Below, piece after piece: positions 2,221 through 42,922 of a stretch of 64,000 nt of DNA; within the stretch, counting starts at the first letter, position 1; each line of letters starts with the position of its first letter. This stretch comes from Branchiostoma floridae (taxonomy: Eukaryota > Chordata > Leptocardii > Amphioxiformes > Branchiostomatidae): assembly GCF_000003815.2 (NCBI RefSeq), contig NC_049987.1:13548270-13612269 (forward strand), in the 5' to 3' direction. Below the pieces are notes generated by a model. It did not search any database. It saw nothing but the letters and a program-made list of their open reading frames with translations, and was not told where the DNA came from. The translations under genes and the position numbers were made by a program.

Positions 2221-3821
2221 TGTCTGGCATGGAAATCGTACACGTGTTAATTTGCCATATGAGAGAAAATGGTAATTCCACACGCAAGCATTACCATGGC
2301 AGATGAATTCGTAGCAATAACATATCAATTACTAATATGCAATACATCTCGTATACGAACTTTTTATTGGGTTGTTCTTATTGTAATTATATGATATAAA
2401 TGATTCAGTAATAGTAAAGCAAATAAAGAAAACAAACATGCCCATTACTTAGGACCATTGTTTTTACCATACTAAGGAAGACATCTGTCTTTGAATGTCA
2501 GTCTATACGACAACAGTTAACTTAGAATAGTCTTCAGAATCTTTAAAGACTATTTGTCAGTATGTTTGATAAACTTGATAGGAAATTATTATGATATAAG
2601 ATGCAAATCCTGCTTGAAGGTAACGTCATTTTACAGAAAAACGCCAAATTAGCACCAAGGACAGGTCTGTTTTCTTGCCAGTCAATAGATAACAACGACT
2701 ACCAGATGTGAAGGGTTCAGCCTTTTACACTTAATCAAAATAAGACTATACAAATGTAGATCATTAAGAACTCAGTGAAATAAAATGGGATGAATGACGA
2801 GGACATAAACTTAAGCAGAAAGACCCATTTAATTCGAAAAGAACGAAACGAACAAAACATATAACAGCCCTTGAAAAACACTTGGTGAAACTATTTGCAA
2901 TTGTTCTCATGAACCAGTTTGAACTGGAGAACTTCGCATTCAATTTGATAACAATCGTACAAACTTCATCATCATCACCATCAGTCGGCTGCGGATCAGT
3001 CGATCACAACAAGTATAAAAAGGTAGCTAAAGCTATGAATCAGCATTTGAGACATTTACTTTAGTGTTATGTAAAGATGTTGGCCAAACCTGATACACAA
3101 AGACAGTTATTGTCAACTCTGATATATAATTTCCTTATTTCAAATCTTAAAGTAATTCACGATAAGAATTGTGATATCCTCAGGTCCCTTAACCTACCTA
3201 CAGGTCACTTTTTTTTGTAATAAAAGAAATTATTCTACGCGAAATGTTCACCACGTGTTCTAGACTCAACTGCAGTGATAAAATGTAGTTTCAAACGTCT
3301 TCTTGAGTTGAGTGACCGAAAGTATTGCTTGTTGACTTCTACACCTGCCTATAGATGTCAATAGATCATCTATGTAGTGATATAGTTAGATTAGTTGATA
3401 GATATAAAGATGATTAAATTTGTCTGTGTAATATAAATGTGCCTTTTATTGTTAAGTTACATTCAGTTTTTATTTCACATATTTATCTATTACCAGGTAT
3501 ATTTTATAGGTGTTTGTTCGCTCCTTTGTTTAAAACAAAACATCGGTAAGGTAAACCCAATATCATGGTGGGTCAAGACTAAAATTGTATAAATCAAAAT
3601 ATATTAGTAATTTTTAATAAAGGCAATAGTTATATTGTATGAAATAACATACTTAAAATGATAATACCAAACCATGATAACAATAACGTCTGGAGCGCAT
3701 GAATTAAGTTCTTGACAAACCCTACACGTCATTGGGAAAGACAACAGCAATTTCCTCACTTCAATCAGGTAAAAATGAGTCATTAGTTTCTCTATAGCCC
3801 TAGGATGAGACGTTAAGTCTA
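2221..3821. other. A/T-rich intergenic stretch, no gene seen
   Basis: Only short, low-complexity frames in either strand; no splice-bounded coding segment, no structured RNA and no obvious repeat recognised. Confidence 0.6.
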
Positions 3822-6800
3822 CTATATCTTCATGGCGTTGAGCTGGTCCACGATGTCCTGTAGTCCCGCCTCAGTCAGAGCCCGCAGAAGCTTCTGTATG
3901 GTCGCGGCGTCGCCTCTCCGCCTCCGCCACGCCTCCAACATGTCCATGCAGCAGTCCTTGGCGTCGCGGTTGGTTGGTTTGTACTGAATCGCATCGATGT
4001 CGGGTCTTCTGAAGCCCAGGAAGAAGGCCAAGTCTTTCCAATATACGCTTACCTTTTCTTTGATGAAGTGGAAGTGTAGTTGGACATCTGCTGTAGTAGA
4101 AAAGGCAAGAAAAGGCAAATGTATATTTATGAATGAGCTTTTACATCGTACTGGTTTATACGGGGCTTATCATGCTACAATGATTCCGTGGTTAAAAATG
4201 CAACAAATGAAAAAAAAAGGGGGGAATATTGAAGACGTAACATCAACTCTCATAATTTCATCGGGTGCCAAAATACCTCCATATAATATATATTAAAAAT
4301 TGTTGTAGAGGCTTTCTGAAGATAATCTTGAATGTCTTAAGTGCATATACCTCAAGGTTACTGATGCTGTATTGGTAACGTTACATTGTTTTAAAAATCA
4401 CTTTGATTAAATTCATTTGTTTTCTCGTGTTGCGGTATAATGGCATTGGCACCCGGTGGAATTATTCAAATTGTAACATTCGGGATAACGTACCTTCACT
4501 AGTGATCTGTCCAGCTGCAGCTCCTCCGTCTAGAATAAACAAAGTATGATCCTTGGAGTCAAGCCATATCAATAATCACAGGATAAAGTCGTGCCCAAAA
4601 CCACACGTTCTTCATGAAACACGTCTGCAATAAACTAAATCGGTCATGTAACTTTTTGCAGAAGTGGCATAACAGATCTTACGTCGTCAAATGTGAAAAT
4701 ATGCTGAGGACCATAATGTAATTGTACTACTGACACGTTGTGAAGTTAAGTTAGAGGTGACCTTACATAAACGCCTTTTGCAGCTACAGACGACGTTGGT
4801 GTCCTCCCCCTGCGGATACAGCTGAAGATTCAGCTGCAGTCGCTCACTGTCCGGATGTCTCTGGACAGTCATGTGGAATGATGGGTAGATCCTGTTGCAG
4901 TCGAGGGTGTCTTCATACTCCAGTCCGCCAGGGGGCTAAAACAGTGCTTTTATTAAACACGTCTGACCAATGACTGCTACTGACAATACAAGCACATCAA
5001 TTATTTGTCTCGAAAGGTTGTTGGAATATGTACTGATGAACAACTATTTGAATTTTCCTACATTAACTGACTACTAATGAAAATGTACCCTCTTATTAAG
5101 AAACACCTTGAGGCAGAAAGTGGGAATTGTTTACCGTTTGTTCATCGTTTCCAAAAGTTAATGAACTCAGATTTACCTGCTTATTTGTCTTGCATTTTGT
5201 CTTCTTCGAATAAAATGCAATAATCTTTATTACGATAATCATCCATTCAAAACTCACCCCTGGGTCAGCAAGATCCAGGGTTCCGCCCTCCACTGTCGCC
5301 TGTAGACAGTAGATCTGGTGAGGCCGGAGTCCCTGGCAGGTGATGGAGTCCCACCAGTAGAACTTTGGATCAAGCTGGGACATGTATTCCTGCAATGCCT
5401 AAAAAACACATAAAGTACAACCTGTAAGAACATGGATCTGGTGTGCTGGTAGTATTGACTGCCGTGCAATTTTCATTTTCTGAATTAGAAAATCCTGAGC
5501 ACAAAACTAAAATGACAACGACACACCTTGACAATATCCATAGTGTTTGAGACGATGTGAGCCTTTACATCCACAGCGTCCTGAGTCATAGACGCTTTGA
5601 AGAGAGTGAGGAGTCCCCTCCTGTTGGCGGAGAGAGCTCGGAGTTTCTGCAGTACAGAGGCCCACAGACTTCCCTTCATATGCCTGGTGATGACGTGGGT
5701 GGGCGTGATGTCTGCAGGATGAAGTGTTATGTTCCCCGCCACAACTTGGGCAGCCTTGACATCATCCGTAGTAAGAGCTGGGGGAATACAAAGTAATGGT
5801 GGTGATGAGTTGATGAGAAGGAAATTAGCCGCAACCTTCAAATGTAACTCGCACTAAGAAATGAACGTGTGCAAAACACTTGTCCTCACCGCTGCCATCC
5901 TCCTGTGTCAGGTCCAGGATGTGCGGTAGGAGGAGCTCCACGGGTACGCCGTCGTCATGGTTACATTGGATGTGGATGAGCGGACCAATCAGCTCCCAGT
6001 CCTCGTTCTCCGGCCAGTAGTCAGACGGGTTCACTGTCCTGTAGGTCAGCTGGACAGGACAGGGGGTAACGACCCCCAGGTCGGTTTGTTTGCACACGTA
6101 CTTCCCTCGGCCAGGCAGTTGTACAGACCTAACAACCAACAGAGTCAGCCGTCAATATAACCAAATGTACCCACAAAAATGTCCACAGAATCCTTTTTCT
6201 ACACATGCACTTAAAAACATAACCTTATTGACAAAGGTAATAAATGCAAGATTACTTTCAACATAATCAAAACTGAATGCAGTTGACACTTGTAATTTGA
6301 ATCGACATCAATACAAACCTTGTTTAAAAAAATGTCCACGGAATCCTTTCGGTGTGGCAATGTTCTAATACGTTTGTTATATAAAATGTATTGCTATAAT
6401 TATAAAATGAATTCATAAAAAAACATTCTGCAAAACATTAACGAAACATTGTGTTTACTAAAAGAACCTAGCTAAACAATTTCTTGGAATTTTCAACTTT
6501 TGCCAGAACCAAGTGTACTGTACTTTAAATCAAACTTCTTACAGCACACAGTAAAAAAGTAACTCACCATGTCGTAACCCCCTGGTCATCCACAGAAGCC
6601 TCAGGTTCCACCTCCACCTCCGGCATCTCCTTTATGAAGTCCTAGTGGCAAGAAAATGGGAAAATTCATGAATAAGACTGTGTCAGAAATTTGCATAGAC
6701 TTTGTACATAAGATACATCCTACCATGTCTCCTAATAGTCCGAAATCTAACCAATGGACGGTTTTCACAATATCTAAGATCAGAACTGTCCATGTGTTCT

Positions 6801-9800
6801 GAGAGTCCTTACCCATACGTTACTTGTGCGCAGACTTCACAATGTAATCAGCCTCGTCCATGTGTTTTAGGACTCATCAACCATACGTACCTTGTACCAT
6901 GTCTATGACAAGCCCTGTCTATGTGTTCTAAGTCTCCTTAACCATACTTACCTTGTAGGCAGTTTTCACAATGTCTAAGAGATCAGCCCTGTCCATGTCT
7001 GTCAAGACTGTCTCCAGCTGCTTGAGGTCGTGCGGAAGTCCGTGGTCCCCTCCGCCCATCCAGACCGTCATTACCTTACAGGTCCGCTGGATGGCGTTGC
7101 TGTACCGTGCCTGTATGCTGTCCAGTCGTGGTTGTGGGATCCGCAGCGCAGCTCCCAGCCGCCGCCAGTCAGAACCAAGTTTGCAGCTTAGCTTTGTCAG
7201 CAGATTGCTTTCTGTACAAGGATAAGGGTTCTTTAAGTTCATTCAATGCTTTAAAATGTTCCTGCTTCTGACTTCACAAAGACCTTTTGGAAGAGGGTAT
7301 TTATATATCGGAACGAAGCAAAGAAGTAGGCCGTTACAGTTCAAGGGGACGATTGCATTTTAGACTAAATGGCGGTGAAATGTAAGGCACACAATACAAC
7401 ACCCTCAGAAGACGAAAAACAACCAAAGATGACCGATAGATTTGCTATTTTGCAATTTGCTGATTTTGTGCACTGGCACACGCACGTAAGAACACACTTG
7501 CCTGCTGATGTAGCTAGCTCTGTCTCCCTCTGGTTTGGTTTGCTCTGTCTGAACTTTTGCAGGGCGTTTTCAGTAAACATCATGGTGGTCCGCTCCAACA
7601 ACTCAGTTGTCTGTTCGTCAGCTGTGGACAGAGTTAGAAGACTGACGATTCAGTCCCAAAAGTAATGGATATAAACTTAATGTGAACACCATTCATGCTG
7701 TAGATCTAAATTCAGATGGAAAGACAGCTGTAAATGCGTTTTAGAATTTGGAAATTTAACAATCTAGTCAGCTGTAGACAACAACAACATTGTGCAAGCC
7801 ATAAGTACCATCAACATAGCAACAAAACAGAAAGACAGGATCTGTACCTGTTTCGTACCCCTTGATTCCATTTGTCGCACAAACATTTAGCAGTTTTTGC
7901 ACAAACTGAACAAGACCGAGAAAGTCATCGAAAATTCCGGGGAGTAAATTCCTGTTTTGTTTGAAAACACCTGAGCTTTCTCATAATGTAACATCCATTG
8001 GCATAATACCGGCCGGTTTACTGCAATTTCTCAAGCAATGCTAATTTGGCAAATGATCAACGCATCATTTTCTCCAGTTACATGTTGCTGTTACAGCTTA
8101 CCTTTGCCACTTCTTCTGTGTATATTATTTTGTCTCTCTTGTCCTGCTACAACCGCTATGACGTAAAACTTTACTGCTGGCGTAGCATTAAAAATGGCGG
8201 GAAAATGGCGGCGTACGTTCAATTTGACCCATTCAGCCGTAGATACGGGCGATAATGCAACGGTTCTTCACACTTTTACACGAGTTGTAGGTCACCAAAA
8301 GAAATTCAAGATTGCTGTTGAATCATGCTCGTCTTGTGCCGTGAGCACATGTGATTATTATCTACAAATCTGGCGATGAACGTGACATCTCCAGGTTTGT
8401 CCCACGACGAGCTCGCCTGCCCCGAAAATGAACTGAAAACTTTTGGCCTTGTTGTCTTCGAATGCATTGTTATCGATGCTTTGTAAATGATGTATTGGAC
8501 ACCTAGATGTCTGAAGTGTGCATACCTCAGAAATAACTATTGTTGCATGTGTAGATCTCTTTAAATTCCATTATTTTTTATCGGCCGGTATAAGTCTTAC
8601 GGCCGGTATTATGCCAATGCATGTTAATCTATCAACTCAGATGAACTTCCAAGCTTTTATAAAATCTATTTATCCAGTCATATATTTGGCACAACCCAAC
8701 GTCTAAATATCAACAAAAGGTGTTTCAGATAATCTTGAGAAAGCCTCTATAACACTTTCCTTTATGTGCCGGTATTGTGAAATTATAAGAGTTTAAGTTA
8801 CTTGAAAATCAAAGTCGTAGAACTACCTACGACTAATGTGACGCCCTTTTGCGATAATAACCACAAAACGTACCGACAATGTCACCAAAGATGATTTCCC
8901 GGTCTTTTCGGTCTGTCCTGTAATCAAACCTGACGTAACTGATGTCGTCAGGAATGTCCGGGGTTGGACCTTTCAGCAGAGACTCGAGCCGGGCCGTGAC
9001 GTCAGAGTACACGTTCATGACGTCAAAGTCACTGCCATGCTCCACGACTTTCTGAGAGAAGTCCACTGTGCTGGACAGACAGCCTAAGGTACTCTCAACA
9101 CTGTCTGCTGTAGCAGAGAGCTGCTTGGAACGGGCTGCTGTGACGGCCGCTAACTTTTCTTTCAGTTCAGTCTGCTTGCGTCTGACCAGGCCACTGTAAT
9201 ACTTGATCTCTTCCTTCGCAGCTGCATCGATGTCGTCTGCAGCTTTCTTACTCCTGGTGTTCAGTTCTACCTGCTTCTCATTTATGACCCCTGCGACATC
9301 CCGGTATTCCTCAATTTTCGGCCCGGCAGTTGCGAGTTTGTATTTGATCTTTGCCCTGACGTCCCTTACAACGTCTGTCAGCAAGACGTACTTGTGGTCT
9401 TTGTGCTGCAGTACCGTGCAGTCTCGGCAGATGGGGTGCTGGCACGTCTCACAGTAGAACTTGAGCTTCTCGTATTTGTGTTTTGGGCACGTCGGCAGTG
9501 ATGATGACGTTTTGGTGATCAGCAGCTCCTTACGCTCTGCCACACCAGTGACTTCATGATTACGTGTGGTTTTGAGGAGACGATGGACTCGAGTGCAGTT
9601 TTTACACAAAAACTCTGCACACACAACACAGTAGTGGTTAGCCACATGTTCTTCACAGACACCACAAGACACTTTGGCATCCTCCTTGCTAACAAGACTC
9701 TTGTGAGTTTGAACGGTGTCCCTCAAGCTCAGGACGAAGAAGTTGTTTTTGAGCCCGGCGACACCGCCCGCCGGAAGTACAGTTTCGGTCCGACATGTTG

Positions 9801-9963
9801 GACATGGAAACTTCCCTTCACCTTGTTTCCCTACAAACTTCTCCAGACAGCCCTTACAGAAGGTGTGAAGACACGGCAGGATCTTGGGTTCCTTAAATGG
9901 CTCCAGACAGATTGTACACTCCAGAAAGTCGCCCGAAATCTGGCTGTGTATGGCCTCCGCCAT
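3822..9963 (-). CDS. RING - B-box - coiled coil - death - ZU5/UPA (FIIND-like) - death protein, nine exons
   Basis: Minus-strand exons 9963-8874, 7211-6952, 6641-6568, 6128-5890, 5777-5527, 5398-5258, 4935-4767, 4529-4494 and 4090-3822 all have GT-AG borders and compatible phases; they sum to 2529 bases, 842 residues plus stop. Residues 16-57 are a C3HC4 RING (CTICLEPF ... CPTCR); 100-137 and 159-192 are B-box zinc fingers; about 205-300 is charged helical coiled coil. Residues 365-450 form a death domain (SDWRRLGAALRI...). Residues 476-555 fit a ZU5 half (WELIGPLIHIQC, VELLLPHILDL), close to the FIIND of NLRP1/CARD8/PIDD; 600-742 fit UPA. Residues 754-842 are a second death domain (YWKDLAFFLGFRRPDIDAI). 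Inferred role: cytosolic innate-immune or cell-death adaptor with ubiquitin-ligase activity. An alternative ATG lies 7 codons upstream (9984). The join across the 1.66 kb intron between RING and death exons rests on phase only; two separate genes remain possible. Confidence 0.75.
7989..8626. mobile_element. Non-autonomous inverted-repeat transposon, about 638 bp, in an intron
   Basis: The ends are inverted copies: the left end reads TAACATCCATTGGCATAATA and continues into ACCGGCCG; the right end (8600-8626) is its reverse complement with one mismatch over 27 bases, 19 inner bases being perfect (GGCCGGTATTATGCCAATG at 8601-8619). A third GGCCGGTAT lies at 8583-8591. No transposase frame inside. 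It sits in the intron between the coiled-coil exon and the first death-domain exon of the RING gene. Confidence 0.75.
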
Positions 9964-20722: not shown

Positions 20723-22315
20723 ATGGCGTCGCTAGTGTGCATGAAAAAGTCGCTCGTGGTAGAAAGCGGCAATTCTTTCAAAGTGTACGACCGGTATGGT
20801 AAACACGATGTTGTCTATTCTCACAGTATCGTCTGCAGGGCCAAAAATGAGAAGGAGAAGACCGAGGGTTCAAAGACTTCGGAGGAGAAGGATGACGAAA
20901 AAGTTAAGGGGGAGGGGGGCGGTGAGGGCCCAGGTTCTGACAAGATCCTTGCACGTGCATGTTCAGTACCCGGTGAGTAAAAACACTCTGACAGCTTATA
21001 CAGGTAACTTTTATTTGGTAATCATCAACCACAAAAATATTGTTGTCTCTAGATGAGACGTGTGTCATCAAATTTTCTTGACTGTTGTTGTCTCTGGTCT
21101 TGTGGCGCGGCTAAGGTTTCAGTTGCATTTTTTTGGAATCTAAAGAATCACCAGCAGGTCCTAAAGTTGTGCCCTTTGGAAAGGTAATTTATGCTGCTTG
21201 TACCTAGCCTAGTATACAAAACTGAGCTATTACATACGGGCGGTTATGCAGAAAAAAAATCTTTCCAAAGCAAAACTGACATGTTTTCTCTTTTCACAGA
21301 TGGGTACTTTGCAGTGGCCACAGACAATAAGGAACTGATTTTGTGGAAGACCACACCTACTTGGAAACATATTAGCACCAGGACTGTTGCTCGCCGCTGT
21401 ACCGCTCTGGTCTTTACCTTCAAGGGAGATGCCATTCTCGCTGCCGACAAATCCGGCGACGTCTACAGCTTCTCAGTGTCGGATCCCGAAGCTCCCGGTA
21501 CGCTACTTCTTGGCCACCTGTCGATGCTGCTCGACATTGCAATCAAAGATGACGACAGTTTCCTCATCACGTGTGACAGAGATGAGAAGATTCGCATCAG
21601 CCACTATCCCAACACACACAGCATCTACGGTTATTGTCTTGGTCACACAGAGTACATCACTGCGCTGTGTCTCTCCCCCTACCCTGACGGGGTACTCCTC
21701 TCAGGGGGTGGGGATGGTACAGTCCGAGTATGGGACTGGCTGAGAGGCAAAGAGCTACATGTAGAACACCTGGCAAAGTTCTGTGGGGAACTGAAGGACA
21801 ACAAACCCCCGGTGGTGTCCAAACTGGTCTGTAACTGGGTAGGGAAACTGGTAGCTGTTGTGGTGGAGGGGCTGGATAGTGTTATCCTGTTCAAGCTTCA
21901 CACAGAAGTAGCACCACGTTTGGATGCACAGCTGATTGAGTCCAATCCTCTCCCCTGTAAGGGTAAGGTGTGGGACGTCGCCTTTGACTGTAACGGTTAC
22001 CTGTGGGTGGCGCAAGCTGTGAAAGATAACACGGTACAGGTGTACAAATACATGCCTTCATGTCGACCACTCATGTGCGTGAGCTCACAGGAACATTTTG
22101 TAGACATCACCACAGCTATCAACTCAGACTGGGACTTCTTCCAGAGCTCCCTTGGTGAGGATACCATGTACAGTGGCTTGTACAAGAAGCACTTTGACAA
22201 CCTGACCCCATACTTTGAGAGGAAGGAAGAGAGGATGAAGGGAAAGAAGAGAAAGGAGGACAAGAAGGGTGATGAAGAAGGGAGCAAGAAAGTCAGAAGT
22301 GAAGAAGTGGTTTAG
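20723..22315 (+). CDS. WDR4: tRNA (guanine-N7)-methyltransferase non-catalytic subunit WDR4/Trm82, two exons
   Basis: Exons 20723-20972 and 21300-22315 join in phase 1 (donor GGTGAGT, acceptor TTTTCACAG) to give 421 residues. Conserved blocks match WDR4 closely: RTVARRCTALVF, DKSGDVYSFSV, LLGHLSMLLDIA, DRDEKIRISHYP, CLGHTEYITALC, SGGGDGTVRVWDW and FDNLTPYFERKEERMK. WD repeats form a beta-propeller. Known role: binds and stabilises METTL1 for m7G46 methylation of tRNA in the nucleus. Exon 1 has an acidic, lysine-rich insert (EKEKTEGSKTSEEKDDEK) between the first blades, and the C-terminus is strongly basic/acidic (KKRKEDKKGDEEGSKK), as in other animals. Most of the propeller is one large exon. 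A polyadenylation signal candidate AATAAA is at 22807-22812. Confidence 0.95.
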
Positions 22316-31610: not shown

Positions 31611-34547
31611 TTACATCATGTTAAGTGGTACGAGTTCGTGTCCATCGTCGTCTCTCATGCCACCGTCCCCAGCCTGTTCATTGTTCACGGGTTTCCCCAA
31701 GGCGGCTCGCAGACGTCTCCAGAACAGCGGCCTGCCCCGTGCGTCCCCCGGCCACTCCAGGTACGTGTCCCGGTCCATCACGGCCTCCAAGTGTTTGTAC
31801 TTCTTCAGCAGCGGTCGCGGAATCTTCTCCAAGAAGACGAGGATCAGCCGACAACTGCCGCCCTTGCCAAACAAGTTGTCCGGAGTCTGAGCCAGCTGCA
31901 GCTCGAACTCACACCAGCCGCTCCGCAGGAAGCTCCTGGTCAACACGCAGATGGTTTTCCGGCTGGTTTCGATTGCTTTGACGATGTTGTTTACAATGGG
32001 GGCACCGGGTAAGAAGTTTCTCTGGTGGATACAGAGTTTGTATCTGGGTTGGTCTTCGACATCTTCTAAGTTGTGGCAGAGTTCGTGCACCACCCACCTA
32101 ATGTCCTCGCTGTTGTGTGCTACGAAAGCATCGTACACAAACCTACGGCCTCTCATTGGTTCTTCATCGTTCTCATTTCTACGTCTTAGCAAGAACATCA
32201 AGTACTTAATCTTCCAATGGTAATGACTGACCAGGATTACTGCAAACATGTAGAACAGAACTGCTGAAGAGGATAATACACAGGCTAGTAGCGGGTCAGG
32301 CCTGAATTCTGTATCAGTATCTACTGGTGACGTACAGTTGATGTGAAAGTTTGACAAATATGTTTCGGCATATTCGGGCGGCGCATTACATTTGTACGAC
32401 TCCAGATTTGTTGACAAATCTAGTTTGCTAGGATTCTCCCTCGCCCATTCCACAAACCAAAGAAGCCTACAGTCACAGAAGAAGGGGTTATCATCTAACG
32501 AAACACGAGTAGCACGTCGAACGACTCTCCCAAATGTCTCCTCTTCGAAGAGACTGATTTTGTTTCTGAACAAAGCAAATATCTCTATGTTAGGCAGACC
32601 GTCAAATGCATGCCTTTCTACTTTGATAATTCTGTTATGACTGAGGGCTAATGTAGTTAAACTATCCAGGCCAACAAAAGCATATGGCGGAATTGCGCTA
32701 AGTGAGGAACCAATTTGAAGCCTTGGCAAACGTCGTAAACCGTAGAAACCATACGGTTCAATTTTTGTCATATCGTTTGAACTGAGATACAACTCTGTCA
32801 CATTTTCGAGGCCTTGAAACATCTTACTCGTTACAGTAGTGATGCTGTTACCGCTTAGATCAAGTTCCTCCAATTTTCCTAGACCTTGGAATGCACCAGG
32901 TTCAATATTGCTGACATCGTTGCTTTCCAGAGACAAGTAGACTAAATTTGCCAGACTTGAGAATTCATTTGCCTTAAGCTCTGTAATCCTATTCCTTCTA
33001 AAAGTGAGATATCTAAGATTTGGCCCTACAACGTTTCTGACAGTGACGAGGGAATTGTAGTTAAGGTAGAGATGGGTGAGAGACCTTAGGCGTATAAAAG
33101 TTGTATTATCGATATGAATTATACCGTTACTGGTTAGATATAACCATTGGAGATTTAGGAGACTGTTGAAAGGCCTAGCCGAAATGGTCTGTAACTTATT
33201 TAAGGTCAAATCTAGGTATGTAAGAGAGCGTAGAGGGTCGAAAACGTGGGCCGGCAAAGTTTCGATATTGTTGAATTGCAACTCAAGTCTTTCTAATCTC
33301 CCCAATCCTTTAAACGCACTGCCATCAATTATATCAATGTTATTCCATCCCAGGTTCAGTTTAGTAAGGTTTCTTGAATGTTGTAGGAATTGTGCCCTCA
33401 CAGTACTCACGTTTGGACCACTACTAGGTTCTTCTAATTGGTAAAACCCTGGCCCGTGAATGTCCAGTTCCTCTAAATCTGGCAGTCGTCCAAAAGTTGT
33501 ATTATCTATGGCAAAGGCCCCACGAACTGTTGTTCCCCATTCTAGCTTTTGTATCTGTGTATGCTGTAGTTCTGTTAATATCGTTTGCGACCGTAAAGGT
33601 TGACTTGATTTGAGACTCAGTGTTTTCAAATGCCGTAGCCGTAACAGAATTCCCTTTTCAAATGTAGAAATCGTGTTGTGATTTAAAAGTAAGTCATGGA
33701 TCGGTAAGTCCAAAATGGGAACCACGTGTTGAAAGCAGAACTGTTCTATGTTGTTGCGTGACATGTCGATTCGATTGAGGGATGTCAGGTTTCTAAAGGA
33801 CTGTGCAAACTTAGGAATGGAGAGGAGGTTTCGTCTAACATTCAGTGTTCGTAGTCTTGTCAGTCTTGACCAGAGTTCCTCCTTTTCTAACAAATCATCA
33901 CGAAGCCAATTACCGGATAAATCCAGAAACTCTATTTCCGACTGTGGATGAAAAAGCCTATCGGGTAGATCTTCAGTTCGTAACTTATTGTGCGACATGT
34001 CAAGCACTTGTAGTCTTTGCAGCCCACATAACGCACACCCTTCGAAACCAATATTACTGGACCATCCAACATTAGAGCTAAGGTTCAAGAAGGTCAGGTT
34101 GTACATACCCATGAACGACCACCTGTTTAAGTGCTGCAGACGATTGTTCGAAAGGATAAGAGTTTGTAGCGACGGAAGAGACGAGGTAATGTTGGACCAC
34201 TGAGAGTCTCCTAGGTTATTTCTTGATAGGTTCAGAGTCCGCAAATGTTTCATCGACGCGAATGTCCCGTTTTCTACATACCGAATACCGGTCCGACTCA
34301 AATCCAAGTACTGCAAGCGCTTCAGACTCCCGAAAGACTCTTTGTGGAATTCTTTTATCCAGTTGTCCTGTAGATCCAATCGCAGAATGGACGCAGGCAG
34401 GTCTGGTGGGACATATTTGAGGTTGGCATCTACGCATGTCACTTCCGTTGTACTCCATACCTGACATCCGTGTGGGTTGTCTGCTTTCGCGACAGGCATT
34501 CCCAACAGAGACCACGCAGACAGACTGAGAATGACCACAGCCCACAT
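31611..34547 (-). CDS. Toll-like receptor A, single exon, 978 aa
   Basis: Intronless frame. Residues 1-22 are a signal peptide (MWAVVILSLSAWSLLGMPVA). An LRRNT-like cap (NPHGCQVWSTTEVTC) leads into some 20-25 leucine-rich repeats (LxxLxLxxNxI), then one cysteine-rich LRRCT cap (NPFFCDCRLLWFVEWA ... YKCNAPPEYA ... INC). A single CF motif makes it vertebrate-type (sccTLR). A membrane segment spans about 751-774. The TIR domain starts near 801: box 1 YDAFVAHNSED, box 2 QRNFLPGAPI with the BB-loop proline, box 3 LFWRRL near 942. Expected role: surface or endosomal pattern recognition, signalling through MyD88-type adaptors; ligand unknown. Many NxT/NxS glycosylation sites are present. The TIR coding sequence is almost identical to those of the next two receptors. 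Confidence 0.95.
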   Translation of the reverse strand: MWAVVILSLSAWSLLGMPVAKADNPHGCQVWSTTEVTCVDANLKYVPPDLPASILRLDLQDNWIKEFHKESFGSLKRLQYLDLSRTGIRYVENGTFASMKHLRTLNLSRNNLGDSQWSNITSSLPSLQTLILSNNRLQHLNRWSFMGMYNLTFLNLSSNVGWSSNIGFEGCALCGLQRLQVLDMSHNKLRTEDLPDRLFHPQSEIEFLDLSGNWLRDDLLEKEELWSRLTRLRTLNVRRNLLSIPKFAQSFRNLTSLNRIDMSRNNIEQFCFQHVVPILDLPIHDLLLNHNTISTFEKGILLRLRHLKTLSLKSSQPLRSQTILTELQHTQIQKLEWGTTVRGAFAIDNTTFGRLPDLEELDIHGPGFYQLEEPSSGPNVSTVRAQFLQHSRNLTKLNLGWNNIDIIDGSAFKGLGRLERLELQFNNIETLPAHVFDPLRSLTYLDLTLNKLQTISARPFNSLLNLQWLYLTSNGIIHIDNTTFIRLRSLTHLYLNYNSLVTVRNVVGPNLRYLTFRRNRITELKANEFSSLANLVYLSLESNDVSNIEPGAFQGLGKLEELDLSGNSITTVTSKMFQGLENVTELYLSSNDMTKIEPYGFYGLRRLPRLQIGSSLSAIPPYAFVGLDSLTTLALSHNRIIKVERHAFDGLPNIEIFALFRNKISLFEEETFGRVVRRATRVSLDDNPFFCDCRLLWFVEWARENPSKLDLSTNLESYKCNAPPEYAETYLSNFHINCTSPVDTDTEFRPDPLLACVLSSSAVLFYMFAVILVSHYHWKIKYLMFLLRRRNENDEEPMRGRRFVYDAFVAHNSEDIRWVVHELCHNLEDVEDQPRYKLCIHQRNFLPGAPIVNNIVKAIETSRKTICVLTRSFLRSGWCEFELQLAQTPDNLFGKGGSCRLILVFLEKIPRPLLKKYKHLEAVMDRDTYLEWPGDARGRPLFWRRLRAALGKPVNNEQAGDGGMRDDDGHELVPLNMM

Positions 34548-35129
34548 CTTTCTAGCAAAATTTGGAAAGAAACGTCGTTGATAAAAGATTGTGTAGGATC
34601 ACTGAGATGACAAGCTGATTTAGTCCTTGCTCGAGAGTCAAACACTGCAAGCAACGCGGGCGTCCTATACACACGTTGGCGGCTGGCCAGAATTTAGTCT
34701 TGCTGTCAGTTTGACGAAACAGGCAACGATCTTCACCAAGCCACAACTGTGCTGCTTTGTAATGTTTCAATCAGACTCGAGCTGGTGATCAGACGTACAG
34801 ACCCACTAGAGCCGTCGGTCACAAAGAGAGACGAGAGAAATGTTTTTAAACCTCTCCTTAGAGGACTCTCAGTCGTTCTGTTAAGCCTTCGAAACTGAAA
34901 CCAGAACATGACCCCCCGTGTGCACATAATGTTACGTGATTTGAATAGTTTGTTTTGTCGTGTTGAATGGGCTAGTTCTGGTCGTATGACATTGGGGAGG
35001 AAGTTCTGCATGCCTCCCACTGTTGTCGAATTTTGACACGGGAACAACATATCTATTATGCTAATTACCCTTTCAACAATTTACAAAGCAGACGCATGTA
35101 CTGATGATAATCTAATGGTATTTATTCGT

Positions 35130-36107: not shown

Positions 36108-38984
36108 TTACATCCTGTTCAGTGGTACAAGTTCGTGTCCATCATCGTCTATCATTCCACCGTCTCCAGCCTGTCCGTCGTTCACGGGTTTCCCCAAGGC
36201 GGCTCGCAGACGTCTCCAGAACAGCGGCCTGCCCCGTGCGTCCCCCGGCCACTCCAGGTACGTGTCCCGGTCCATCACGGCCTCCAAGTGTTTGTACTTC
36301 TTCAGCAGCGGGCGCGGAATCTTCTCCAAGAAGACGAGGATCAGCCGACAACTGCCGCCCTTGCCAAACAAGTTGTCCGGAGTCTGAGCCAGCTGCAGCT
36401 CGAACTCACACCAGCCGCTCCGCAGGAAGCTCCTGGTCAACACGCAGATGGTTTTCCGGCTGGTTTCGATTGCTTTGACGATGTTGTTTACAATGGGGGC
36501 ACCGGGTAGGAAGTTTCTCTGGTGGATACAGAGTTTGTATCTGGGTTGGTCTTGGACATCTTCTAAGTTGTGGCAGAGTTCGTGCACCACCCACCTAATG
36601 TCCTCGCTGTTATGTGCTACGAAGGCATCGTACACAAACCTACGGCCTCTCATTGGTTCATCGTCGTCCTCATTTCTACGCCTTAGCAAAAACATTAGGT
36701 ACTTAATCTTCCAATGGTAATAGCTGATAAGGAACACTGCAAACATGTAGAACACAATTGCTGATGAAGATAGTGCACAGGCTAGTGGCAGGTTAGGCTG
36801 AAATTCGTTATCTATAGGTGACGTACAGTTAATGTAAAAGTCTACTAATCTTGTGTCCGCGTATTCTGGTGGCCCGGCACACTTGTACCAGTGCAAGTAA
36901 AAAGAATATATCTTATCTGGATTGTTCCTCGCCCATTCCACAAACCAGAGAAGCTTACAATCACAGTAGAACGGATTCTGTTCAAATTGAATTTGAGAAG
37001 CTTGCCGAACGACACGACCGAAAGTCTCCTCTTCGAAGACGGTGATTTTATTCTTAACCAAAAGAAGTATCTTCAACTTATGCAGACCATCAAAAGTATG
37101 CTTATTCACTCTAGCAATTTGGTTAAAACTGAGGTCTAAGAAAACTAAACTATCCATGCCAGTAAAGGCATACGAATCTACGGTTCTTAATGTGCGTGTA
37201 ATAGAAAGGTTTTCCAACCGTCGCAAACCGTAAAAACCATACGGTTCAATTTCCAGAACGTCGTTCAAACTAAGATCTAACACTGTCACATTTTCAAGGC
37301 CTTCAAACATCCTACTCGTGATAGTGGCAATTCTGTTCAAACACAAATCAAGTTTCTTTAGTTTTCCTAGACCTTGGAATGCATGAGGTTCAATCGTCTT
37401 GATAACGTTACCTACTACGGATAAATAGACTAAATTCTGAAGACCGCAGAATTCGTGTGCGTTTAGAACTGTGATTTCATTTCTCGCCAGGTTAACAGCC
37501 TTGACTGTCGGTCCTACAACATTTCTAGCTGTGGTAAGGAGATTGTACGATAGGTCGAGATGGGTCAGAAAATTGAGCCCTAAGAAAGTTGTGTTATCAA
37601 TTTGGACGATGCCGTTACCACGGATGAATAGCTTTTTAAGATGTAGAAGACCTTTGAAAAGAGTAGGAGAAATTGTGTCCAAATTATTTGAACTCAAATC
37701 CAGATAAGTAAGGAAGAGCAGGGGGTCAAAAACATGGTCTGGTAAAGTCTGGATATAGTTTCTGCGTAACCGAAGCTTGTCTAGGCTCTCCAGGCCTGTA
37801 AATGCATACTCATCAATGATACTGATATTATTCCATCCCAAGTCTAATTTAGTAAGATTTCCCGAATGTATTAGGATGTTTGCCTTTAACACACTCAAGC
37901 CTGGTCCTTTAATAGTCAGCTCCTCTAAACCTGGCAGTCGTCCAAAAGTTGTGTTATCTATGGCAAAGTTGCCTGGAGCTGTTCCCAATTCTAGCTTTTG
38001 TATTTTTGTATGTTGCAATTCTGGTAATATCTTTTGCAATTGTGAAGGAGAAATAGGCGTTTGTTCCAGATCTAGTTTTCTTAAATGACGAAGCCGCAAT
38101 AGGATGCCTACTTCAAAAATAGAAATCGGATTGTAACTCAAAATCAAGTCATGGATTGGTGCGTTCAATAGAGGAGCTAAGTTTTGAAAGCGGAACTGTT
38201 GTATTTTGTTACCGGACATGGTGATGGTGTTCAGGGATGTCAGATTTCTAAAGGACTGTGCAAATTTTGGAATGGAGAGGTAGTTTCGCCTTACAAGTAG
38301 TGTTCGTAGTCTCGATAGTCCTAACCACAGTTCCTCCTTTTCTAACACATCATCAGTAAGCCTATTGTTTGACAGGTCCAATAACTCTAGTTCTGATTGA
38401 GGGTGGAAGAGTCGGTTGGGGAGGGTACTTATCTCGTTACTGGTCATGTCGAGCCTTTTCAGTCTTTGTTGTCCACAAAACGCACACTCTCCAACAATGA
38501 TGGCATTGGAGCTAAGGTCCAAGAAGGTCAAGTTGTGTAGGCCCTTGAACGACCACCTGCTTAAGTGCTGCAGACGGTTGTTCGAAAGGATGAGGGTTCG
38601 TAGGGAGGGAAGAGACGAGGTTATGTTGGACCACTGGGAGTCTCCAAGGTCATTTCTTGATAAGTTCAGAGTCCGCAAATTTGTCATACCGGCAAATGTT
38701 CCGTTTTCTACATACTCAAAACGGGTCCAAGTCAAATCCAAGTACTCCAAGTGCTTAAGAGTATTGAAAGGTTGCCTGTAGAGTTCCTTTATCCGGTTGC
38801 CCTGTAGATCCAATCGTAGAATGGACTCAGGCAGGTCTGGCGGTACAACAGTGAGCTGGAACGTATCAACGCAAGTAACCTCCGCTGGACTCCATACCTG
38901 ACATCCGTGGGGGTTGTCTGCATTCCCAACGGGCATTCCCAACAGAAACCACACAGACAAACTGAGGAACGCCACATTCAGCAT
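36108..38984 (-). CDS. Toll-like receptor B, single exon, 958 aa
   Basis: Intronless; same architecture as receptor A: signal peptide (MLNVAFLSLSVWFLLGMPVG), N-terminal cap NPHGCQVWSPAEVTC, about 20-24 leucine-rich repeats, one LRRCT (NPFYCDCKLLWFVEWARNNP ... YKCAGPPEYA), membrane segment (LACALSSSAIVFYMFAVFLI), TIR from about residue 781 with YDAFVAHNSED, RNFLPGAPI and LFWRRL. The ectodomain differs throughout from A, while the cytoplasmic part is the same except for single residues in the juxtamembrane region and tail. Same strand as A; 1.56 kb of spacer with a foldback and a MITE separates the stop of B from the start of A. Confidence 0.95.
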   Translation of the reverse strand: MLNVAFLSLSVWFLLGMPVGNADNPHGCQVWSPAEVTCVDTFQLTVVPPDLPESILRLDLQGNRIKELYRQPFNTLKHLEYLDLTWTRFEYVENGTFAGMTNLRTLNLSRNDLGDSQWSNITSSLPSLRTLILSNNRLQHLSRWSFKGLHNLTFLDLSSNAIIVGECAFCGQQRLKRLDMTSNEISTLPNRLFHPQSELELLDLSNNRLTDDVLEKEELWLGLSRLRTLLVRRNYLSIPKFAQSFRNLTSLNTITMSGNKIQQFRFQNLAPLLNAPIHDLILSYNPISIFEVGILLRLRHLRKLDLEQTPISPSQLQKILPELQHTKIQKLELGTAPGNFAIDNTTFGRLPGLEELTIKGPGLSVLKANILIHSGNLTKLDLGWNNISIIDEYAFTGLESLDKLRLRRNYIQTLPDHVFDPLLFLTYLDLSSNNLDTISPTLFKGLLHLKKLFIRGNGIVQIDNTTFLGLNFLTHLDLSYNLLTTARNVVGPTVKAVNLARNEITVLNAHEFCGLQNLVYLSVVGNVIKTIEPHAFQGLGKLKKLDLCLNRIATITSRMFEGLENVTVLDLSLNDVLEIEPYGFYGLRRLENLSITRTLRTVDSYAFTGMDSLVFLDLSFNQIARVNKHTFDGLHKLKILLLVKNKITVFEEETFGRVVRQASQIQFEQNPFYCDCKLLWFVEWARNNPDKIYSFYLHWYKCAGPPEYADTRLVDFYINCTSPIDNEFQPNLPLACALSSSAIVFYMFAVFLISYYHWKIKYLMFLLRRRNEDDDEPMRGRRFVYDAFVAHNSEDIRWVVHELCHNLEDVQDQPRYKLCIHQRNFLPGAPIVNNIVKAIETSRKTICVLTRSFLRSGWCEFELQLAQTPDNLFGKGGSCRLILVFLEKIPRPLLKKYKHLEAVMDRDTYLEWPGDARGRPLFWRRLRAALGKPVNDGQAGDGGMIDDDGHELVPLNRM

Positions 38985-40090
38985 CTTTCCAGCAATATCT
39001 AGAGTCGCCGCCGTCCGAAAACTGTCACGAACAGTTTAAGATGTCAAGCTGCTGGTTATACGAACGTCCTGTACCGTCTGCAGAATTAGTCCAGTTGATG
39101 GCCGCCTGATCCAATAGAAAACGCTTTCCAACACGCTACAGTTGTACAGCGTCAATCTCGATCTAGTGATGAAATCAAAAGTCTCACTAAAGAAGTAGTA
39201 TAGGTCACAATGAGAGACGGGAGAAATATTTTGGAAGCATCCACCCACGGCTATGCTCTAGGTCGCTGTGTAATCCCCTCGTAAGCTAAGCCATTGCATG
39301 GCACCAGATAAGGGTGCATACCGCATTGGTGTGCTTTGATTAATTTCATGTTAAGTGGATTTATCCTAGTCATATGATTGTAAAGAGGAAGTCCTGCATG
39401 CCTCTGACCGTTGCGAATTACTATAAAAGGAGCACATCTATGATTTTAAATATACTATTCCTCTTTCACCAATCCATAAAGCGGGAGTATTGAAATCCCG
39501 ATAAGACCTTGAACGTGGTGCTGAAATTCTCCCGAAAATTCTACCTCCCCCTGCATTACACAGACCTAAAAGATAAATCTTCAAAGTATAATCATTACTA
39601 TTGTAGTCATTCATAAACTGTAATGACTGCAAGCTCAAAGTAGCCACTCGGTAGAACAATGCTTCTGCTTTGTGCTTTGGCAAAAACGGAACATAACCGA
39701 TACGACCAAAACATGTTCAAGTGATCAAGCTATTGATAATAGTGAAAGTAAATCAATACTTCCTCTTTAAAGTGATATGACTCATACTACGTATAGCTAG
39801 TACTTCCACATTCTTAAAACCAAACAGGCGCCTGTTGGTCTTGCTGATGTCACACTCTGGGTTCAGCTGCTCCGACTGTCAAAGGCCAACTGCAATCAAC
39901 ATATCTCACTTGCTCCTATCATGTGACACGTGGCCGGAAACTTGGATCATTACGAACCATACTGCCTGCGAATTCAGCCGGAAGGAATCCGATACGCTTG
40001 TGAAGGCCGGTCGCTCACTGATAGACAGATCCAGTTATTGACTACAGCTAAGATAAGAGTACCTGGATTTCTGTCTCTTCTAGATTCACC
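38985..40090. promoter_or_regulatory. Divergent spacer between Toll-like receptors B and C
   Basis: 1.1 kb between the start codons of B (minus) and C (plus); must contain both promoters and any 5' untranslated exons. No coding frame and no confident factor sites were identified. Confidence 0.5.
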
Positions 40091-42922
40091 ATGTCTATTA
40101 GGCTCCTGGCCATTTTCTGCCTTTCTGTGTGGTTCCTGTCGGGAGCATTATCTACCAGGAGTGGAGTTAATCCACACGGATGTCAGGTATGGAGTCTAAC
40201 GGAGGTAACATGCACGCACGCGTTCCTCCACACATATGTCCCACCAGACCTGCCTGCGTCCATTCTGCGACTGGATCTACAGGGAAACGACATAACGCAA
40301 CTCCTCGTACAGCCTCTAGATGCTCTAAAGAACTTGCAGTACTTGGATTTGAGTTGGAACCGAATAGAGTATATAGAAAACGGAACATTTGCCTCCATGA
40401 CAAATTTGCGGACTCTGAACTTATCAAGAAATGGTTTAGGAGACTCTCAGTGGTCCAACATAACCTCGTCTCTTCCCTCCCTACAAACTCTCATCCTTTG
40501 GGCCAACCGTCTGCATCACATAAACAGGTGGTCATTCAGGGGACTACAAAATCTGACTTTCTTGGACCTTGGCTCAAATGTCATCAATGTTGGAGAGTGT
40601 GCGTTTTGTGGACTACAAAAACTACAAAGACTCGAAATATACGGTAACGACTTAATTACCCTTCCCAGTCGACTTTTTCATCCTGAGTCAGAACTACAGG
40701 CGCTGGACCTGTCGAACAATTTGCTTTCTGATGATGTTTTAGAGAAGGAGGAACTCTGGTCAGGATTAGTAAAACTACAAGTATTGTATGTACCAGGAAA
40801 CTACTTCTCCATTCCAAAATTTGCACAGTCCTTTAGGAACCTAACATCCCTTAACACCATTAACATGTCCGGTAACAAAATACAACAGTTCCGCTTTCAA
40901 AACGTAGTTCCCTTGTTGAACGCACCAATCCATGTTTTGATTTTTAGTTACAATCCGATTTCCATATTTGAAGAAGGCATTCTGTTTCGGCTCCGATATT
41001 TGAACACATTATACCTCTACGATACGTCTATTCCGTCTTCACAATTGCAAAAGATACTACCAGAATTGCAACATACAAAGATACAAAAGCTAGAATTGGG
41101 ACCAGCTCCAGGCAACTTTGCCATAGATAATACAACTTTTGGACGACTGCCAGCTTTAGAGGAACTGAGTATTTACGGCTCGTACCTGGAGGAGAATAAC
41201 GTTACTATCAGTGATGAAAATGCATTCATAGGATTAGAGAGATTAGCAAAATTACAGCTGCAACGAAACAGTATCCAGACTTTACCAGACAATGTTTTTG
41301 AGCCCCTGGTTGCTCTTACTTATCTGGATTTGGGCTCAAATAATTTGAACATCATTTTACCCACACTTTTCAAAGGGCTCTTAAATCTTCAGTGGCTAGA
41401 TCTATCTAGTAATAGCATTACTCAAATTAATAATACGACATTCATAGGGCTAAATTTTCTGACCCACCTTGATCTATCCGACAATTGGCTAACCACAGCT
41501 ACCCTGAATATCGTAGGACAGAGTGTCAAGTCTATTGATTTGAAGGCAAATAACATCGGAGCTCTAAAAGCAAATCAATTCTCAGGTCTTCCGAATTTAG
41601 TCTCGTTGTGCCTACAAAGTAACAGGATTATAACCATTGAACCTCGTGCATTCCAAGGTCTAGGAAAATTAGAGGAACTTGATCTGAGTTTCAACAAAAT
41701 TGCCACTATCACGAGTAGGATGTTTGAAGGCCTTGAAAATGTTACAAACTTAAATCTTGATCTAAACCATGTACTGGAAGAAATCGAACCGCATGGTTTT
41801 TATGGTTTATGGCGTTTGAAAAGTCTTAAAATTGTAAAGAATTTGAAAAGAATTTCGTCGTATGCTTTCTCTGGTTTGGATAGTTTAACATTCTTAGACC
41901 TCAGTTATAATGAGATTGCCCAAGTGAGAAGGCATGCATTTGACGGTTTACCTAAATTGGACATATTTCTTTTGGTTAAGAACAAAATCGCCGTCTTCGA
42001 AGAAGAGACATTTGGGCATGTCGTTCGGCAAGCTTCTCAAATTCAGTTTGAACAGAACCCGTTCTACTGTGATTGTAAGCTTCTCTGGTTTGTGGAGTGG
42101 GCGAGGAATAACCCCGATATAGTATATTCCAATAATCGCGATTTGTACAAGTGTACTGGACCCCCAGAATACGCGGATACGATATTAGCAAACTTTTACA
42201 TCAACTGCACGTCACCTATAGACAACGAATTTCAGCCTAACCTGCCACTAGCCTGTGCATTATCCTCTTCAGCCATTCTGTTCTACATGTTTGCAGTGTT
42301 TATTAGCTATTACCATTGGAAGATTAAGTACCTAATGTTCTTGCTAAGACGTAGAAATGAGGACGATGAAGAACCAATGAGAGGCCGGAGGTTTGTGTAC
42401 GATGCCTTCGTAGCACATAACAGCGAGGACATTAGGTGGGTGGTGCACGAACTCTGCCACAACTTAGAAGATGTCCAAGACCAACCCAGATACAAACTCT
42501 GTATCCACCAGAGAAACTTCCTACCCGGTGCCCCCATTGTAAACAACATCGTCAAAGCAATCGAAACCAGCCGGAAAACCATCTGCGTGTTGACCAGGAG
42601 CTTCCTGCGGAGCGGCTGGTGTGAGTTCGAGCTGCAGCTGGCTCAGACTCCGGACAACTTGTTTGGCAAGGGCGGCAGTTGTCGGCTGATCCTTGTCTTC
42701 TTGGAGAAGATTCCGCGACCGCTGCTGAAGAAGTACAAACACTTGGAGGCCGTGATGGACCGGGACACGTACCTGGAGTGGCCGGGGGACGCACGGGGCA
42801 GGCCGCTGTTCTGGAGACGTCTGCGAGCCGCCTTGGGGAAACCCGTGAACAATGAACAGGCTGGAGACCGTGGCATGAGAGACGACGAAAACCACGAACT
42901 CGTGCCGTTGTTAAGGGTGTAA
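40091..42922 (+). CDS. Toll-like receptor C, single exon, 943 aa
   Basis: Intronless; signal peptide MSIRLLAIFCLSVWFLSGAL, N-terminal cap NPHGCQVWSLTEVTC, leucine-rich repeats, LRRCT (NPFYCDCKLLWFVEWARNNP), membrane segment (SSSAILFYMFAVFISYYHW) and TIR from about residue 766. It is closest to receptor B across the ectodomain (shared LNTINMSGNKIQQFRFQNV, for example) but lacks one repeat: after LPALEELSIYGS it jumps to NNVTISDENAFIGLERLAKL, missing the LxKLDLGWNN repeat present in A and B. The TIR coding sequence is nearly identical to A and B. AATAAA lies at 43355-43360, about 430 bp after the stop. Confidence 0.95.
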   Translation: MSIRLLAIFCLSVWFLSGALSTRSGVNPHGCQVWSLTEVTCTHAFLHTYVPPDLPASILRLDLQGNDITQLLVQPLDALKNLQYLDLSWNRIEYIENGTFASMTNLRTLNLSRNGLGDSQWSNITSSLPSLQTLILWANRLHHINRWSFRGLQNLTFLDLGSNVINVGECAFCGLQKLQRLEIYGNDLITLPSRLFHPESELQALDLSNNLLSDDVLEKEELWSGLVKLQVLYVPGNYFSIPKFAQSFRNLTSLNTINMSGNKIQQFRFQNVVPLLNAPIHVLIFSYNPISIFEEGILFRLRYLNTLYLYDTSIPSSQLQKILPELQHTKIQKLELGPAPGNFAIDNTTFGRLPALEELSIYGSYLEENNVTISDENAFIGLERLAKLQLQRNSIQTLPDNVFEPLVALTYLDLGSNNLNIILPTLFKGLLNLQWLDLSSNSITQINNTTFIGLNFLTHLDLSDNWLTTATLNIVGQSVKSIDLKANNIGALKANQFSGLPNLVSLCLQSNRIITIEPRAFQGLGKLEELDLSFNKIATITSRMFEGLENVTNLNLDLNHVLEEIEPHGFYGLWRLKSLKIVKNLKRISSYAFSGLDSLTFLDLSYNEIAQVRRHAFDGLPKLDIFLLVKNKIAVFEEETFGHVVRQASQIQFEQNPFYCDCKLLWFVEWARNNPDIVYSNNRDLYKCTGPPEYADTILANFYINCTSPIDNEFQPNLPLACALSSSAILFYMFAVFISYYHWKIKYLMFLLRRRNEDDEEPMRGRRFVYDAFVAHNSEDIRWVVHELCHNLEDVQDQPRYKLCIHQRNFLPGAPIVNNIVKAIETSRKTICVLTRSFLRSGWCEFELQLAQTPDNLFGKGGSCRLILVFLEKIPRPLLKKYKHLEAVMDRDTYLEWPGDARGRPLFWRRLRAALGKPVNNEQAGDRGMRDDENHELVPLLRV

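Follow-up and report, generated by a model that had tools for sequence, protein, structure and literature searches.

TRIM (RBCC) proteins carry a RING and B-boxes, and their usual C-terminal domains include NHL and PRY-SPRY. PIDD1, whose features we took for comparison from the part of PMC3210808 consulted, has LRRs, two ZU5 domains, an HF/S site and a C-terminal Death domain. NLRP1 and CARD8 share a FIIND; in CARD8, the F296H change is severely defective and S297A abolishes cleavage, according to the same part of PMC3210808. Fusions of TRADD-N with FIIND or with TRIM ligase domains have been described in animals (PMC8195603, in part). Lancelets show very high exon shuffling with a 1-1 phase bias (PMC4284660, in part), and among their dispensable genes Death is reported to be over-represented more than any other domain (PMC12373286, in part). 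Here, we analysed a 64,000-nucleotide stretch of the 513 Mb Branchiostoma floridae genome (C9:13548270-13612269, hereafter the window), whose minus strand holds a gene model combining several of these parts.

The predicted window protein has the RING and B-boxes in common with TRIM proteins, but its C-terminus is Death-FIIND-Death instead of the usual TRIM C-terminal domains. With PIDD1 it shares the order of a ZU5 and then a Death domain at the C-terminus, and LRRs lie upstream in two of its paralogs, C18A and C18B, as well; it differs in that it has one FIIND/ZU5 stretch where PIDD1 has two ZU5 domains, carries a further Death domain ahead of that stretch, and lacks both an LRR match next to the gene and an HF/S site. 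The description of the back half as a PIDD-like platform, given in the first-pass annotation, therefore holds for the C-terminal Death domain but not for the LRRs or the single FIIND stretch, and it fits C18A and C18B better. With NLRP1 and CARD8, at 17-22% identity, the protein has in common the FIIND and the aligned cleavage-site Ser, but it carries Death rather than CARD, has no NACHT listed by Pfam, and has a Gly where they have Phe in front of the Ser. The TRADD-N fusions mix TRIM and FIIND in a similar way, but the partner there is TRADD-N, and a TRIM-Death-FIIND-Death chain was not named in the part of PMC8195603 consulted. Such a protein was also unnamed in the titles and abstract starts of the CC-licensed PMC papers that the searches listed. 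The proposal of a lineage-specific shuffled protein was consistent with the 1-1 phase shuffling published for lancelets in the consulted part of PMC4284660, and we regard the chain as a variant within that shuffling and not as a new kind.

The gene had been proposed as nine minus-strand exons. Their AG/GT borders and agreeing phases held, and they sum to 2529 nt, or 843 codons including the stop, with a single stop overall; the chain was not complete, however, as an exon at 7621-7502 had been overlooked. The corrected model has ten exons and 883 codons including the stop, contains no premature stop, and lies wholly in unbroken sequence, with N runs absent from 1789 to 50949. Exon 1 (9963-8874) contains the start codon, the RING (residues about 15-60), two B-boxes (best stretch 157-194) and a presumed coiled coil, and ends at a phase-1 donor, GTACGT, at an end point also found in relatives. 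Intron 1 (8873-7622) contains a transposon-like repeat. Exon 2 (7621-7502; 120 nt, 40 residues) is of phase 1 at both ends and is followed by a GC-AG intron with the donor GCAAGT. Exon 3 (7211-6952) encodes the first Death domain, exon 4 (6641-6568) a linker, exon 5 (6128-5890) the first part of the ZU5 of the FIIND, and exon 6 (5777-5527) the remaining ZU5, the aligned cleavage-site Ser after Gly, and the start of a segment at the position of UPA, which would continue through exons 7 (5398-5258) and 8 (4935-4767). Exon 9 (4529-4494) is a 36-nt linker exon, for which a 42-nt counterpart was mapped in C18B only. Exon 10 (4090-3822) encodes the second Death domain and the stop; it begins at a tandem acceptor, CAGCAG, and so at 4090 or 4087, of which 4087 fits the CAG-ATGTCC border of C18A and C18B. 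Two AATAAA signals (3474-3445; first bases 3474 and 3450) lie 3' of the stop, together with an ATTAAA starting at 3618. The single frame claimed from RING and B-boxes to the second Death domain stayed open and is the best gene model; alternatively, the Death part may have its own promoter, or the RING exon may be spliced elsewhere. We consider the chances somewhat better than even that exon 1 and the Death-FIIND-Death exons form one chimera made at a phase-1 intron; agreement of phase by itself would arise by chance in one case in three.

For the front of the protein, Pfam bore out the claimed RING (zf-C3HC4, 1.6e-9, residues 16-57; zf-RING_UBOX, 1.3e-9, residues 16-55) and B-boxes (zf-B_box, 1e-14, two stretches). 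Among solved structures, TRIM3 and TRIM2 were the best matches, followed by TIF1-beta and TRIM56, and the phmmer match of the exon-1 protein to TRIM25 extended to residue 232. The two Death domains were likewise recovered on separate pieces, at 9.2e-9 for the first and 2.9e-14 for the second; the first matched the solved structure of FADD at about 1e-4 over half of the domain, and the second matched RIPK1 at 7e-7. Pfam listed no CARD at E up to 10, and the C-terminal domain is Death.

Between the two Death domains, a FIIND-like ZU5-UPA had been claimed. The ZU5 part was confirmed (Pfam FIIND, 1.2e-24, residues 509-641); with the window protein and its paralogs as query, hhalign against rat NLRP1 aligned 71 columns with a probability of 41.8%. 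The UPA part was not borne out by Pfam or by profile comparison: no Pfam UPA was detected at E up to 10 in the window protein or in two paralogs, and comparison with the UPA of NLRP1 and CARD8 gave an hhalign probability of 1.7%. NCBIfam yielded no family. The search of the profile of window and paralogs against solved structures at E up to 10 gave two matches, a weak one to rat NLRP1 (0.42) and one to a designed repeat protein (8.2e-8 overall); we take the latter to be spurious, as no single stretch of it passed. The UPA half, placed by position and length in exons 6-8, is therefore unconfirmed and termed putative here. The cleavage site retains its Ser but has Gly in the place of Phe, and so reads Gly-Ser and not Phe-Ser. 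Around the nearby His, the window and C19 have AAQ where C18A and C18B have AAH, one column off the NLRP1 His, which leaves the cleavage His ambiguous. Since Phe is replaced by Gly and the F296H change leaves CARD8 severely defective, autoproteolysis would not be expected here.

The back half of the gene has three paralogous loci, C18A, C18B and C19. Exons 3 to 6 recur in all three with equal lengths and AG/GT borders, so the exon chain is more than a chance arrangement, and the matched pieces show 77-94% protein identity to the window. The last Death exon was also found in C18A and C18B, and C19 enters N in exon 8. In C18B, L029:3286-3384 and L029:3426-3557 lie next to each other and match one and the same set of exon-7 residues, possibly a duplicated or mutually exclusive exon. 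All three paralogs have, 5' of exon 2, an open frame that by eye is coiled-coil-like and reaches a phase-1 GT; no curated coiled-coil family scored above its cut-off in these frames, and a search of the window at E 0.01 did not recover the frame. Further upstream, an LRR exon and ankyrin exons are present in C18A and C18B (Pfam on those of C18A). In exon order, this neighbouring pair (L026-L029) reads ankyrin, then LRR, coiled-coil-like, Death, FIIND and again Death, and would, if these exons are spliced together, resemble PIDD more closely than the window gene does. In the window, matches to the paralog LRR exon lie only at 32.6-41.9 kb, with 24-29% identity. By eye, the window also has three Toll-like-receptor-like single open frames of 956-995 residues (31611-34598 and 36108-39035 on the minus strand, 40052-42922 on the plus strand), with LRRs, a membrane stretch and a TIR-like end, and a 375-residue open frame (21188-22315, plus strand) resembling a WD40 protein of the WDR4 kind.

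Exon-1 residues 1-354 had no match in the 8-11 kb upstream of C18A, C18B and C19, and with no TRIM match over that distance in any of the three paralogs, the TRIM-Death-FIIND-Death combination is a single case. We also compared 33 FIIND places (from 48 rows) with 61 TRIM or B-box places picked by eye (from 113 plus 150 rows). The window was alone among the places compared in having a FIIND-B-box pair less than 100 kb apart, the next nearest pair being 118 kb apart; as only 150 of 570 and 112 of 498 candidates were scored, this pairing is not proven unique.

Exon 1 itself belongs to a large set of sequences, with at least 113 genome rows for its protein including its own (112 of 498 candidates scored). 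The best 13 relatives after itself showed 57-84% identity, and 11 of these 13 extend to query residue 362 or 363, which is the exon end. In five of six relatives examined, a G plus GT follows GDIV, GDFV or GNIV just where the window has them, in phase 1; C146_44, the exception, lacks the shared GT. Two of the five shared GTs read GTACAG (L033) and GTGCAA (L042), which we take to be poor donors. Behind this end point the relatives differ. Glycine-rich modules follow in three of the best 13 (L033, L034 and L042), the first glycine-rich exon starting, by eye, in phase 1 with G|AT. MATH modules continuous with the TRIM exon follow in six (L037-L041 and L043), an assignment made by Pfam on L037 only (2.3e-10). 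A WWE-coding frame lies after L035 (Pfam, 1.4e-9) and is possibly the C-terminal module of that TRIM exon; L036, L044 and L045 have no assigned module. In L037, L039 and L040, the TRIM exon runs without introns into several MATH-like repeats, as one open frame of 856-874 residues. Exon 1 thus belongs to a local family with one phase-1 end point and varied C-terminal modules (glycine-rich, MATH and possibly WWE). A tree of the family, built on 11 rows out of 14 (L043, L044 and L045 left out), grouped it with L033 and L034 with modest support (82/83); exon 1 therefore probably derives from a TRIM-glycine-rich gene, with the Death cassette entering behind it.

A glycine-rich exon is in fact present in the window. 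This orphan exon (1573-946, minus strand), termed ALK/LTK-like after its relative C3_42, whose glycine-rich construct matched Pfam ALK_LTK_GRD at 1.2e-4 and 22.6 bits, below the curated cut-off of 24.5, stays open for 208 codons until the next gap and has a pairwise dN/dS of 0.35-0.37; it matched no solved structure up to E 0.1. Its position downstream of exon 1 on the same strand suggests a rival partner. Exon 1 could belong to a TRIM-glycine-rich gene reaching this exon, with the Death-FIIND-Death gene lying in its intron under its own promoter and starting in exon 2. The glycine-rich exons that come next in L033 and L034, the nearest relatives of exon 1, and in L042 agree with such a nested arrangement, as do the poly(A) signals that the Death gene has of its own. 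However, glycine-rich exons 1 and 2 were missing from the assembled window and would have to be in a gap of 100 N (1689-1788) about 115 bases from the third, which could hide them; a second gap of 100 N lies at 846-945. The relatives are also imperfect witnesses. L033 (C9:12608540) and L034 (C9:12602526) are neighbouring copies with an in-frame TAA at the same place of the TRIM exon, the glycine-rich exon of L034 changes frame, and both copies may lack full proteins. With these stops and this frame change, L033 and L034 are weaker models of a working partner, and only L042 of the three seems intact. A further reading joins both partners, exon 1 being spliced alternatively to the Death-FIIND-Death or to the glycine-rich exons; acceptors of both kinds take phase 1, and each partner is open with dN/dS below 1, but with two of the three glycine-rich exons unseen we regard alternative splicing as quite unlikely, and less so the nested arrangement, on which exon 2 and intron 1 also bear.

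Residues of exon 2 were matched in all three paralogs (364-396 in C18A, 364-403 in C18B and 364-399 in C19; 33 to 40 residues). The GC donor at its end recurs in C18B (120 nt) and C19 (121 nt, one undetermined base counted), C18A has a different 3' end, and the exon start is conserved in all three loci. Around the GC donor, the C18A stretch (L026:8423-8754) is repeated at intervals of multiples of 27 bases, so the donor-like and acceptor-like signals of C18A lie inside a tandem repeat. A branch-point-like CTAAC stretch 5' of exon 2 is common to the window, C18A and C18B and absent in C19. Exon 2 of the window reads ATGATG, where the paralogs have a single ATG, in what we take to be a favourable start context, and a separate translation start here is possible, as the nested arrangement would have it. 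On the other hand, exon 2 retains its acceptor, so an upstream exon with a donor is still needed. On the sense strand of intron 1, neither AATAAA nor ATTAAA was present. An alternative promoter in this intron had been a candidate, with a CpG-rich stretch near 8205, presumably YY1-like, and a donor near 8103. The stretch lies inside a many-copy MITE-like element (7989-8626; 638 bp) with 27-nt inverted ends (7989-8015 and 8600-8626, 96% complementary) and at least 79 genome matches including its own, from 40 of 1228 candidates scored. Because it is part of this repeat, the promoter-like stretch was dropped as specific evidence. On balance, we consider a nested Death gene, the main rival of the chimera, unlikely. 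The homology of the window to the C18B intron between the coiled-coil-like frame and exon 2 begins at about 7877, which fits a break within that intron.

We then considered the constraint on the two halves. Exon 1 compared with six relatives gave pairwise dN/dS values of 0.23-0.46, and exons 3-6 compared with the three paralogs gave 0.26-0.32. On the window branch, dN/dS was 0.39-0.47 for exon 1, with bootstrap upper bounds of 0.76-0.88, and 0.18-0.28 for exons 3-6, with bootstrap upper bounds of 0.36-0.53. The private dS values were alike, at 0.12-0.14 and 0.13-0.15, respectively. These values indicate that both halves have been kept coding since their split from the nearest sampled copies, over similar times; dN/dS speaks for each half separately, and neither dates the joining nor proves a shared transcript. 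They also bear on whether the halves are mere neighbours through assembly or duplication, with a misjoin or a dead 3' cassette and no functional gene. Lancelet genomes are polymorphic, and the two gaps of 100 N are nearby, but the whole model lies in the unbroken stretch, lacks a premature stop and has dN/dS below 1 on both halves, which makes such an artefact very unlikely.

Under the favoured reading, the locus would produce one chimeric protein of about 882 residues, with a TRIM-type front and a Death-FIIND-Death platform joined by splicing in phase 1. Its probable origin is the insertion of the 3' cassette from a Death-FIIND-Death gene into a TRIM-glycine-rich gene, behind the TRIM exon. 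In this protein, the presumed coiled coil would dimerise the RING, the two Death domains would collect death-fold partners, and the ligase would put ubiquitin on the gathered complex or on itself. The FIIND, with Gly for Phe at the cleavage site, would serve as an uncleaved regulatory spacer. In NLRP1, outside signals direct the N-terminal half to the proteasome (PMC7794386, in part), and by analogy the RING could ubiquitinate in cis its own N-terminal half, whose loss would free the FIIND-linked Death domain as a self-contained death-fold switch. That version would require cleavage at the non-canonical Gly-Ser site or by another protease, and we consider it very unlikely.

If the two halves are joined, the chimera would place a ubiquitin ligase in cis with a FIIND/Death platform, in an order unnamed in the portions of the literature searched. 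More generally, the exchange of modules seems to have centred on a single phase-1 joint, with TRIM, or LRR plus coiled coil, in front of it and Death-FIIND-Death, glycine-rich or MATH modules behind it. Such a joint would offer a concrete example, open to testing, of the way in which lancelets assemble new immune adaptors.
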